DNA from: Trichocoleus desertorum ATA4-8-CV12
Lineage (GTDB): Bacteria > Cyanobacteriota > Cyanobacteriia > FACHB-46
Length of the DNA: 64,000 nt
Assembly: GCA_019358975.1 (NCBI GenBank)
Contig: JAHHIL010000004.1
Coordinates: forward strand, 124,001 to 188,000
Direction of reading: 5' to 3'
A program made the translations under genes and the position numbers. The notes under the pieces are model-generated. The model searched no databases and was not told the origin of the DNA. It was given only the letters and a program-made list of their open reading frames with translations. Below, in pieces: positions 1-4,534 of the stretch; positions within the stretch are counted from its first letter, which is position 1; each line of letters opens with the position of its first letter.

Positions 1-61
1 AGGAGCTTAAGGCGATCGCCAGGATACATTGACATTCACAATTTTGTGTAAAGGAAAAATC

Positions 62-370
62 ATGAATAAGCAATTCAAAGTTCTAGTTTCAGCGTTTGGC
101 TTAGCTCTATTTCTAGCTGCTTGTGGCACTGGTGGCGGCACTGGTGGAGATACAGGTGGTGGTGCAGGTGGCACAGGTGGCACAGGTACCACCGGAACAG
201 AGGGTGGTACGGGTACAGGTACCACCGGAACAGGTGCAACAGGGACAGGTGGCACAGGAACCACTGATACTGGAACTACCGGGACAGGTGGCACAGGTGG
301 CACAGATACAACAACTACAACAACCTCTCCTAGCCCATCTCCTAGCCCATCTCCTACCACTTCTCCATAA
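62..370 (+). CDS. Gly/Thr-rich lipoprotein of unknown function
   Basis: A 102-residue protein with a lipoprotein signal: a basic start (MNKQFK), a hydrophobic stretch and a lipobox LFLAAC, so the mature protein should begin at a lipidated Cys at about residue 20. Everything after that is low complexity: Gly/Thr-rich repeats (GGT, GTGT, TTGT) followed by a short Ser-Pro-Ser-Pro tail. The ATG was chosen because it follows AAGGA at 51-55; the frame is open upstream from a TTG at 29 but has no ribosome site there. No domain is recognisable, so it may be a spacer-like surface protein. The coding repeats are also DNA repeats and could vary in length between strains. Confidence 0.7.
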   Translation: MNKQFKVLVSAFGLALFLAACGTGGGTGGDTGGGAGGTGGTGTTGTEGGTGTGTTGTGATGTGGTGTTDTGTTGTGGTGGTDTTTTTTSPSPSPSPSPTTSP

Positions 371-401
371 AAATTTAGCGTTGACTGAAAGCCCAACGCA
401 T

Positions 402-445
402 AAGCCTCTTCTCATGATTGGGAAGAGGCTTTTTGGTTTTATTTT
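402..445 (+). terminator. Rho-independent terminator after the lipoprotein gene
   Basis: A perfect 10-bp stem, AAGCCTCTTC (402-411) with GAAGAGGCTT (422-431), has a 10-nt loop and is followed by a T-rich run (432-445). It ends the lipoprotein transcript. The opposite strand has no T-run, so it does not serve the converging minus-strand genes. Confidence 0.85.
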
Positions 446-469
446 TTGGTTTTACTGAGAACTAGCCAT

Positions 470-673
470 TTATGGCTTTGATTCTTCCTCAACGTTGGCT
501 TGGCCAGGGGATTCCGGATCTGATGTCATGGCAGGAGCAGCCTGATGAGCATTTGGATCGTTAGCATCTGTATCTGAATCAGCCTGAACACTATTAGAAC
601 CGGGTGATGCTTCTAATTCCGCTTGGGGCAGTTGTTCAACTCCAAGAGATTCATCCTTTTGTTCGTCTAGCAT
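470..673 (-). CDS. Small acidic disordered protein, possibly a detached C-terminal tail
   Basis: A 67-residue open frame rich in Asp, Glu, Ser, Pro and Ala with no hydrophobic core, so probably unstructured. It lies directly after the hemerythrin-like gene and in exactly the same reading frame, separated from it only by a TAA and one ACC codon. There is no convincing ribosome site before its ATG. It may be translated by re-initiation, or it may be the former tail of the upstream protein cut off by a nonsense change. No family was recognised. Confidence 0.4.
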   Translation of the reverse strand: MLDEQKDESLGVEQLPQAELEASPGSNSVQADSDTDANDPNAHQAAPAMTSDPESPGQANVEEESKP

Positions 674-676
674 GGT

Positions 677-1252
677 TTAACTCTGGATCACTTCGTCAGT
701 TTGGTCATATATTTCTTGCATGTGCTCGTAATAAGGACGCAACGCTGGATAAAGCACCTGCTCCTCAGCCAAACCGTGAATACTAACGTCTTTGTAGAGC
801 TGTCCAAAATACTCCTGAACTTTCTCAGGATCATCGCTTTCTAAAAGTTCGCTGAATAAAACATCCGATTTCGTATGATCAGCCAGCAGCAAGTCACGAA
901 TACTCATCTCTTCATTAACTCGCGTCATCACACTCCCTACAACGCCAGTTAAAGCAGCGGCAGCATCCTGAACCCGCGCTTTCAGCCCCTGAGCTGGATC
1001 TTCTCCTGTAAGTTCGCGTATGCCTAAAACTTCTAAAATGCCTTTGAGCTGTTCTTGGTGGGCACGATTTTCAAAATTAATTGTATTAAGAGGGGTAATA
1101 GCCATTTCAATATCAGCACCCACCACTTGAGCCGCTTTATGAATTAGCAATCCTCTCATTGTCTGCCGATGCTTGAGCAGTTCCTGCGGAAATACTTGCT
1201 CAAACAATGTGAATTCTGCACTTGCCATGTAGTTCCGAACTTCTTCTATCAT
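677..1252 (-). CDS. Hemerythrin HHE-like protein, C-terminal portion
   Basis: A 191-residue helical protein. The first half resembles the N-terminal helical region of cyanobacterial hemerythrin-domain proteins (LLKHRQTM, AAQVVGADIE, NFENRAHQEQL). The second half has an HHE-type pattern, ADHTKSDVLF followed by IHGLAEEQVLYPAL, expected to bind a di-iron or similar metal centre. Its ATG overlaps the stop of the preceding gene (ATGA). The residues before that ATG in the same frame (ATT CGG GCA) continue the family sequence, so this looks like the larger part of one gene split by a frameshift at the A8 run at 1261-1268. As usually seen in cyanobacteria the family is a single longer chain. The possible role is oxygen, NO or iron sensing or storage, which is inference. 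Confidence 0.7.
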   Translation of the reverse strand: MIEEVRNYMASAEFTLFEQVFPQELLKHRQTMRGLLIHKAAQVVGADIEMAITPLNTINFENRAHQEQLKGILEVLGIRELTGEDPAQGLKARVQDAAAALTGVVGSVMTRVNEEMSIRDLLLADHTKSDVLFSELLESDDPEKVQEYFGQLYKDVSIHGLAEEQVLYPALRPYYEHMQEIYDQTDEVIQS

Positions 1253-1491
1253 TGCCCGAATTTTTTTTGTGGCTCGCTCTTAACTCCATACTGAACAATT
1301 ACAGTTTCAATAATACCCATATTTTTCTGGTCATCTTGGAGCATATTCTGTAATTGTTGATGAATTTGCTCATCAACTACAGTACTCAACAAGACGTGTT
1401 CGTTGGCAATCAGCAAATTTTGTAGAGCTTGCATATCTGCCAATTGAGATGCGATCGCGATACGCTTTGCGTCATCCAGCATTACTACCAT
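1249..1491 (-). CDS. N-terminal portion of the hemerythrin-like protein, ending at a frameshift
   Basis: 80 residues beginning MVVMLDDAKRIAIASQLADM, helical, with the block MLQDDQKNMGIIETVIVQYG that in related cyanobacterial hemerythrin proteins lies just before the part encoded by the next gene. The frame ends in KKFGQ and stop directly after a run of eight A (minus strand). Shifting back by one base there joins it without loss to the downstream frame (KKIRAMIEEV). A good ribosome site, AAAGGAG, stands about 8 nt before the ATG. Either this is a broken gene, an assembly error in a homopolymer, or expression depends on slippage. Confidence 0.65.
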   Translation of the reverse strand: MVVMLDDAKRIAIASQLADMQALQNLLIANEHVLLSTVVDEQIHQQLQNMLQDDQKNMGIIETVIVQYGVKSEPQKKFGQ

Positions 1492-2199
1492 TTTTTATTC
1501 TCCTTTACCCAGGTGATGACAACCTAGCAATTGTTGCTTATGCCATGACACTCAATGTATTTAGGTACGTCAGATATGTATCAGATATGTGTTAGATGCA
1601 GGCTCTAAAATCATCCATGCTATTTGACTAACAAATCAAGAAATAGCAGTCATTCCAACTTCTAGCTAAAGAGACAAATTATTGTTAAGTTGTTTCGGAT
1701 TCCTAAACACAGCTTTTAGGTTGTATTTATGGAAACAAGAATTTTTAATAAAGAACTGCTCTGAATCTAGTAGTGTCAGCTAGTTTAAAGGCTTCATAGT
1801 TTTTAAACTAATGTATTATCTGAGAATCCAAAAATAACGATTTAATATTTTAATGATATTCAAGAGATGTGACAAAGCTATCTCGGAAATTGTAGTATTT
1901 GAGATTACAATTTTGCTTAATAAAAGGCTTAATACAATTTCTACCTTTTGGTGAATTAGCTGAATTCCTTAGAGAGAAGCTATTCCAACAACAAAAGTGT
2001 CTAATCTTTATTAGGGCTAGGGAATCAAAGTCGATAAAAAATAGTACTGGGATTCCAAATAGTGTTTTAGAAGAGCTGTTTAGACCACTAATTGCTCTCA
2101 GAAGTTTCTATCTAATTTTTGACGGATGCGATCGCAAAACAGTCTATAGAATCGTATCCCTGCTATCAGCAAGTTGGCATGAATATTTTAGGAGATCAA
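1492..2199. other. AT-rich intergenic region without a supported gene
   Basis: About 0.7 kb, AT-rich and poor in HIP1 sites. It holds the divergent promoters of the hemerythrin-like locus and the glycosidase-RmlD gene. One clear inverted repeat, TAGTTTAAA (1781-1789) with TTTAAACTA (1802-1810), could form a hairpin. An open frame from a TTG at 1899 overlaps the next gene, has no ribosome site and no recognisable domain, and is not called. Confidence 0.6.
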
Positions 2200-4389
2200 A
2201 TGCTTTCAAACGCTAAGTCCCTTCCACCACTAGAACTGTGGGGCGGCATTGAATGTACGGTGAATCGAATTCATGACCAGTATTTTGATCAATTAAAGCG
2301 TAATGGTCATGAAACTCGCATTAGTGACCTTGATCTGTTTGCCGCATTGGGCATTCAGGCGATCCGTTATCCAGTACTATGGGAAAAAATTGCGCCGAGT
2401 GGACTAGAGCAAGCAGATTGGTCTTGGCCAGACCAGCGATTAGCTAGGTTAGATGATTTGGGCATTCGTCCGATTGTGGGTTTAGTGCATCACGGTAGCG
2501 GTCCCCGTCACACAAGCTTAATTGACCCTACCTTTCCAGAAAAGCTGGCTGAGTTTGCCCGTGCTGTTGCAACTCGTTATCCCTGGGTTAGCCATTACAC
2601 ACCTGTTAACGAGCCGCTGACCACTGCTCGCTTTAGTGGCCTGTATGGTCATTGGTATCCTCATGGACAAGACGGATATACCTTTGCTCAGGCTTTGATC
2701 AATCAATGCCGAGCGATCGCGCTGTCAATGCAAGCCATTCGAGAAATCAATCCCCAGGCGCAACTCGTACAAACAGAGGATTTGGGCAAGACGTACAGTA
2801 CACCCCTATTGGCCTACCAAGCTGAGTTAGAAAACGAACGTCGGTGGCTCAGCCTGGATTTATTGTGTGGGCGCTTAACTCCGGATCGCCCGATGTGGGA
2901 TTATCTGCGTTCTTTTGGCGTGGAAGAAACGGCCCTCACCTGGTTTCTGGATCATCCTTGTCCCCCAGACATTATGGGGATTAATCACTATCTCACGAGT
3001 GAGCGATTCCTCGATGAACGACTAGAACGATATCCTGTTTCAGCTCATGGTGGTAATGAGCACCATCAGTATGCCGATATAGAAGCGGTTAGGGTTAGGG
3101 TCTGTGAAGAACTGGCGGGACATAGAACGTTGCTACGAGAAACCTGGGATCGGTATGGACGAGCGATCGCTGTCACAGAGGTTCATTTAGGTTGCACTCA
3201 TGAGGAGCAGTTGCGCTGGCTGAAGGAGGTTTGGGACGCGGCTCAACACTTACGCACCGAAGGGATAGATATTCGGGCAATCACGGTATGGTCACTTTTA
3301 GGCGCTTATGACTGGAATACCTTAGTGACCCGGATCGATAATTTCTATGAGCCTGGTGTGTTTGACTTGCGAAGTCCTTCGCCTCGGCCTACAGCGCTAG
3401 CCTCCATGCTGCGTCACCTAGCAGAAGAACGTGAATATAACCATCCAGTTTTAGAAGTACCCGGTTGGTGGCGGCGGCCAGAGCGATTGTTTTATCCTCC
3501 AGCTCCCCCCGCTTCCTTTGCTTCCTCCGTCTCCTCCGCTGGCTCCTCAACTCCTTCCGCGATTCTCATTACTGGTGCCACCGGAACCTTGGGCCAAGCC
3601 TTTGCCCGCATGTGTGATATCCGAGGTCTCCCCTATCACCTGTTGACTCGTCAAGAGATGGACATTACCAATCCATCCTCTGTCGATCAGGTACTGACAG
3701 AATTGCAGCCTTGGGCGGTCATTAATGCCGCTGGATATGTGCGGGTAGATGATGCAGAGCGGGAGCCTGATCTGTGTCGTCGTATCAATGCTGATGGAGC
3801 AGCAATCCTGGCAGAGGCTTGTATTCAGCATGCTACCTCATTTGTCACTTTCTCGTCCGATTTGGTGTTCGATGGCGATCGCGCTAATCCTTATTTAGAA
3901 AGTTCTGAAGTCGCACCTTTAAACGTTTACGGGCGCAGCAAAGCGATAGCAGAGCAATGGGTACTACAAAAAAATCCTTGCTCTTTGGTCATCCGCACTA
4001 GCGCCTTTTTTAGCGCTTGGGACGAATACAATTTCCTCACGATCGCCCTAAGAACTCTTGCGTCAGGGCAGCGATTTCTAGCCGCATCAGATGGAGTAGT
4101 TTCCCCTACCTATGTGCCCGATCTGGTCAACACCACGCTGGATCTGATGATCGATGGGGAGTATGGTGTCTGGCATTTGGCTAACTCAGGCGCGATCGCT
4201 TGGGCAGAACTGGCACGGCATGTTGCTGACTTAGCAGGACTAGATTCTCAGCAAATTGAGGCTAGACCGAATAAGGATTTGGGTTTTAAAGCGGTTCGTC
4301 CTGCTTACAGTGCCCTCAGTAGTGAGCGAGGCATCTTGTTACCCTCCTTAGAAAATGCGATCGATCGCTACCTTGGCCAGCGGGTTTAA
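2200..4389 (+). CDS. Glycoside hydrolase family 1-like / RmlD-like sugar-nucleotide reductase fusion
   Basis: A 729-residue two-domain protein. Residues about 10-415 are a GH1-type TIM barrel: the acid/base motif NEP at 137-139 and a candidate nucleophile Glu327 in VTEVH (family norm TENG, so the motif is altered). A Pro/Ser/Ala-rich linker (about 431-453) leads to an RmlD-type short-chain reductase: the NAD(P) motif GATGTLG at 459-465, SSDLVFDG and the catalytic Tyr577-x3-Lys581 (YGRSK). dTDP-4-dehydrorhamnose reductase reduces a nucleotide sugar to dTDP-rhamnose; what the fused pair does is unclear, possibly building or trimming a deoxyhexose glycan. The ATG at 2200 follows AGGAG at 2190-2194. 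Earlier in-frame starts (TTG 2119, ATG 2179) lack a ribosome site. Confidence 0.85.
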   Translation: MLSNAKSLPPLELWGGIECTVNRIHDQYFDQLKRNGHETRISDLDLFAALGIQAIRYPVLWEKIAPSGLEQADWSWPDQRLARLDDLGIRPIVGLVHHGSGPRHTSLIDPTFPEKLAEFARAVATRYPWVSHYTPVNEPLTTARFSGLYGHWYPHGQDGYTFAQALINQCRAIALSMQAIREINPQAQLVQTEDLGKTYSTPLLAYQAELENERRWLSLDLLCGRLTPDRPMWDYLRSFGVEETALTWFLDHPCPPDIMGINHYLTSERFLDERLERYPVSAHGGNEHHQYADIEAVRVRVCEELAGHRTLLRETWDRYGRAIAVTEVHLGCTHEEQLRWLKEVWDAAQHLRTEGIDIRAITVWSLLGAYDWNTLVTRIDNFYEPGVFDLRSPSPRPTALASMLRHLAEEREYNHPVLEVPGWWRRPERLFYPPAPPASFASSVSSAGSSTPSAILITGATGTLGQAFARMCDIRGLPYHLLTRQEMDITNPSSVDQVLTELQPWAVINAAGYVRVDDAEREPDLCRRINADGAAILAEACIQHATSFVTFSSDLVFDGDRANPYLESSEVAPLNVYGRSKAIAEQWVLQKNPCSLVIRTSAFFSAWDEYNFLTIALRTLASGQRFLAASDGVVSPTYVPDLVNTTLDLMIDGEYGVWHLANSGAIAWAELARHVADLAGLDSQQIEARPNKDLGFKAVRPAYSALSSERGILLPSLENAIDRYLGQRV

Positions 4390-4534
4390 TGCGAGTAATG
4401 TGGCAATGTTTGCTAGCGTTTACTATTGAAGCTAGGGTCGTTCAATTTCTTGCCGTTTAATTTCTTACCAAAGTTTTGTCGGTTAGATACATCCCCTGTT
4501 CCAAGTAGACTTCAATTTGCTGGTCCAAAGCTCA

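Follow-up and report, generated by a model that had tools for sequence, protein, structure and literature searches.

The window analysed here, the whole 64,000-nucleotide stretch of Trichocoleus desertorum ATA4-8-CV12 DNA, contains near its left end two short reading frames that follow one another on the minus strand. The first, ORF1 (1491..1249), encodes 80 amino acids, has the C-terminal end GVKSEPQKKFGQ before its stop codon and is preceded by a Shine-Dalgarno-like AAGGAG upstream of its ATG, while the second, ORF2 (1252..677), encodes 191 amino acids, beginning with MIEEV and ending with DEVIQS before the stop. The two overlap in an ATGA (1249..1252, minus strand), in which the ORF1 stop codon TGA shares bases with the ORF2 start codon ATG at 1252, as the earlier note had observed. 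A run of eight A lies close to the end of ORF1 (C-A8-T at 1261-1268 on the minus strand, T8 on the plus strand) and places the heptamer A_AAA_AAA in frame at the frame break; from this run to the stop the ORF1 codons read CAA AAA AAA TTC GGG CAA TGA, and translation terminates 9 nt beyond the run.

ORF2 ends in AGT TAA ACC (674..682, minus strand), which comprises its end, its stop codon and a 3-nt spacer to the ATG of the next gene, and which appears to be the junction at which a C-terminus was lost. This next gene (470..673, minus strand) is intact, small and acidic, encodes 67 amino acids (MLDEQKDESLGVEQLPQ...) and represents a small conserved cyanobacterial family that is separate from the hemerythrin gene, is marked by the motif DESLGVEQLPQ, has no Pfam or NCBIfam match and was found in 11 of 340 genomes searched in the class, mostly away from hemerythrin genes. 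In the members compared (window 470-673, L120 and L133-L142), the motif extends to DESLGVEQLPQxEL..SPG. The possibility that the 67-aa ORF is the hemerythrin tail was considered, given that 'MLDE' is common to both, and was rejected, as the ORF belongs to its own small family, other members of which begin alike (e.g., MPDEQHDESLG).

Many cyanobacterial proteins match both frames, at 72-75% identity for ORF2 and 53-67% for ORF1, so the pairing of the two is not a matter of chance. Furthermore, ORF1 and then ORF2 align in order with the same two-domain (YciF-like plus hemerythrin) proteins, indicating homology over both domains. A one-base backward step at A8 joins the frames as QKKIRAMIEEV and yields a linker of exactly the family's length (e.g., GVKAEAKETTQKMIEE in L039), the peptide that spans the junction of the joined frames being EPQKKIRAMIEEV. 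Judged from these alignments, ORF1 and ORF2 are one family sequence split by a -1 frame break. The 80-residue frame, its -1 rejoining at A8 (KKIRAMIEEV) and the slippery A-AAA-AAA context, all described before, were recovered when the ORF coordinates and the reading were re-derived; the added claim that the step restores the family sequence holds for the linker length and fails for the full sequence, since the copy ends ~75-80 residues early.

The family, iron-binding in type and common among cyanobacteria, consists of ~350-aa proteins in which a YciF/DUF892-like helical bundle is followed by a hemerythrin bundle. We used as a reference the intact relative from Mojavia pulchra (L035, a 353-codon frame), whose AlphaFold model (mean pLDDT 85) has a helical bundle at the N-terminus and a hemerythrin bundle at the C-terminus. 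The best Foldseek matches to this model were an HHE-domain protein and YciF/Dps-like proteins, none with E < 0.001, and the naming of the N-terminal domain as YciF/DUF892-like rests on fold similarity (TM-score to the target about 0.7) and a sub-threshold DUF892 match. Using the helix positions of the model, ORF1 corresponds to helices 1-2 of the N-terminal bundle, the frame break sits in the loop between helices 2 and 3, and ORF2 comprises the remainder of this bundle together with hemerythrin helices 1-3, the third one partial. ORF2 matched the Hemerythrin HHE domain PF01814 with 30 bits, above the curated cut-off of 25.3, though covering only profile positions 3-80 of 127.

The window copy thus departs from the single open frame of the family in two ways, the A8 break and an early stop. 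Its sequence breaks off within hemerythrin helix 3, at what is position 277 in the L035 frame of 353 codons, and its last ~75-80 residues (the last quarter) are absent, where relatives go on ...DEVIQMLDEIKPL... for 75-80 further residues. In the L035 model the lost part is the fourth hemerythrin helix, which carries the invariant His/Glu/Glu (ligand-type residues), namely the 100%-conserved H305, E309 and E310 (H299/E303/E304 when numbered from Met1), so that the window copy has neither a complete four-helix hemerythrin bundle nor all of its conserved ligand-type residues. A search of the 64-kb window for a remnant of the missing C-terminus found none at E 1e-3. The C-terminal loss is a second lesion of this gene, one that the earlier note overlooked. 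That note had held that nine A at the run would make an ordinary intact gene, which is wrong: with the C-terminal part gone as well, nine A would yield a truncated protein.

As to the frame break itself, the comparison with relatives that had been suggested as a check showed that all 80 related cyanobacterial loci are open across the linker where the window copy breaks. In two loci, each from a MAG, the gene is interrupted at another place: in the hemerythrin domain in L046 (861-1430) and in the N-terminal domain in L084 (around 5908). These may be real lesions or MAG errors. Two more loci (L063 and L099) run off contig ends. Of 94 genes of the family, 29 have 6-9 consecutive A in this linker, and several Nostoc relatives (L096, L104, L106, L109 and L113) carry A8 or A9 there in frame. 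The linker is thus A-rich across the family and tolerant, and an A run on its own does not serve recoding in these genes.

We then considered how the coding sequence has changed. A gene that has long been dead is expected to show a ratio of changes at codon positions 1+2 to position 3 near 1. On the terminal branch of the window copy in the protein tree (94 proteins, FastTree) this ratio was 0.25, compared to 0.06-0.33 in relatives, and it is to be read as a bound rather than a date, as third positions are possibly partly saturated. Similarly, of the positions conserved at 95% or more, none of 19 was changed in ORF1 and two of 70 in ORF2 (2/89 overall), which is within the range of intact genes. 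The gene therefore carries the disabling lesions of a pseudogene when set against intact homologues (frame break and C-terminal loss), and its terminal branch has a purifying pattern with no relaxation of selection, which would not be expected anyway if the loss is recent. Since the substitutions are still purifying, any damage is recent. The pattern is compatible with damage of recent date, with a base-call error at A8 and with continued use, and does not separate them.

The next most likely reading, though clearly a minority one, is that a base-call or assembly error turned A9 into A8, in which case the real gene would be one open frame of ~270 aa with the hemerythrin end still truncated. 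The assembly is a draft of 90 contigs, A8 is the window's sole A/T run of at least eight (Markov simulations predict 4-5 in the 64 kb), purifying substitutions persist in both frames and a single step gives back the exact linker length. However, the window genes that can be compared with the congener G002 are unsplit, arguing that the assembly is not generally frame-damaged: of the 34 G002 frames with window matches 32 were single, and the one listed as double was the untranslated start of a stop-to-stop frame. Frame errors in this assembly are thus rare, A8 being the likeliest place for one, and an error there would leave the missing C-terminus unexplained.

The heptamer also raises programmed slippage, either by the ribosome (-1 at A_AAA_AAA) or by the polymerase at A8, which would produce a fused protein alongside the 80-aa product, as in dnaX and some IS genes. 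An A_AAA_AAA run gave about 10% frameshifting in a tested cassette (PMC3711429), the heptamer here is in frame, and constraint is apparent in both frames. In many bacteria, selection against A/T runs becomes evident at about nine nucleotides (PMC1088944). Yet the break is shared by no relative, those with A8-A9 being in frame, and the fused product would still be devoid of hemerythrin helix 4. Moreover, the RNA downstream of A8 folded no better than shuffles (z -0.32, in a simple fold that does not reach pseudoknots) and no Shine-Dalgarno-like stimulator was found upstream near the run. Published criteria assign a lone frame break with homology support to indels or sequencing errors, not to programmed events (PMC3711429), and we regard programmed slippage as very unlikely.

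Two further readings are, in our view, barely plausible. In phase variation, the run would alternate between A8 (off) and A9 (on) within the population, and the linker, with its recurrent A runs, is a plausible indel hot spot; still, A8 is short for a contingency tract, and the C-terminus is absent in either phase. Alternatively, ORF1 and ORF2 could be two coupled genes, separately translated through the ATGA and assembling as a split bundle, as the overlap and a split falling in the helix 2-3 loop would allow, but no good ribosome site was found for ORF2, none of the relatives is divided at this point and the hemerythrin half is itself incomplete. A more speculative variant, which draws on the selection still visible on both frames, is that A8 acts as a slippage or phase switch that yields, alongside a short two-helix protein, a shortened ferritin-like/hemerythrin product with a new, helix-4-independent role; this we consider very improbable.

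The genome carries, besides the broken gene, two intact paralogues and one stand-alone hemerythrin gene, and no third full copy was found in either congener (G001 and G002). The broken gene lies within a 4.4-kb segment (11..4417) that neither congener has at the equivalent position; apart from the hemerythrin gene, this segment holds the small gene, a glycosidase-RfbD-type fusion gene and a lipoprotein-like ORF rich in Gly/Thr. In G002 the sequences matching both flanks of this segment (85-93% identical) almost adjoin, with 66 bp between them. G001 has the right flank; to the left of the ABC-F gene there, no match to the segment or to the left flank was found. Judged from these flanks, the 4.4-kb difference could reflect either a gain here or a loss in the congeners.

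Several features of this region were observed in passing. The lipoprotein-like ORF (61-370, plus strand) consists mostly of Gly/Thr repeats (GGTGGT...). The glycosidase-RfbD-type fusion gene (2119-4389, plus strand) is a second copy, the other (G000:C43:45558-46835) being 77% identical, and the congeners have one each; in several cyanobacteria such a fusion lies near a hemerythrin gene, a small acidic gene or both, as a loose common neighbourhood (L047, L145, L163 and window 470-4389). Another block of 2.5 kb (L161 7275-9749, to the left of the window), comprising an SDR and a second domain, occurs in this genome and is missing from the syntenic place in G002.

To summarize, the window gene is probably a spare third paralogue that encoded the cyanobacterial two-domain protein until its recent disablement, and it is located in a species-specific segment. 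Of the three options that the earlier note left side by side, a broken gene is hence favoured, an error at A8 comes second and slippage last. In the sequence of events that we infer, A8 is real DNA: a one-base indel in the A-rich linker would have produced A8 and the frame break, and a rearrangement would have removed the last ~75-80 codons, placing the stop at the start of the unrelated small gene. Low-level incidental slippage, or reinitiation at the ATGA, may occur in some ribosomes. Even a joined product would be without hemerythrin helix 4 and unable to build the complete metal site of the family. Presumably, no function remains. Three points count against decay: the coding sequence shows no relaxed selection, so the decay must be very recent; the assembly being a draft, its lone A8 may have been miscalled; and a putative C-terminally shortened protein could have kept some function.

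The A8 run is thus most likely a product of ordinary recent gene decay or of a base-call error and not a special slippage device. For annotation, a disrupted, truncated copy fits better than two genes or a recoded gene, with little import beyond this, and the case illustrates that a slippery heptamer with a perfectly rejoining frame is weak evidence of recoding until the rest of the gene is compared with relatives.

Compared to the intact two-domain proteins (e.g., L035 of Mojavia pulchra, L036 of Iningainema tapete and L038 of Microcoleus vaginatus), the window copy has the same domain order and linker length and is 67-70% identical across the joined 269 residues, but these proteins are single frames of ~340-370 aa with a complete hemerythrin bundle, whereas the window copy is frame-broken and ~75-80 residues short. 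In the protein tree it clusters (support 0.98) with hemerythrin and membrane-domain fusions (L006, L044, L047 and L049), which differ in bearing an extra ~150-aa C-terminal membrane domain that this genome carries as a gene of its own, to the left of the window. Fusions of this kind, ~500 aa in total, were seen in L006 (1252-2754), L044, L047, L049, L162 and L163, and the membrane domain is free-standing in this genome (G000:C4:120445-120937) and in the congener G002. That this free-standing gene is the lost tail of the window copy is unlikely, as G002 has a 95% identical stand-alone gene and does not have this hemerythrin copy.

With genes that use programmed -1 frameshifting or transcriptional slippage (dnaX and IS types), the window gene shares an A-rich slippery run of the A_AAA_AAA type; unlike them, it is a lone case, with no conserved site, stimulator or relative using the site. 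With the genes disrupted at homopolymers (Baranov 2005, PMC1088944; Antonov 2013, PMC3711429), it has in common a lone A-run break in a gene that is intact elsewhere, and its only notable difference from them is its still clean coding sequence.
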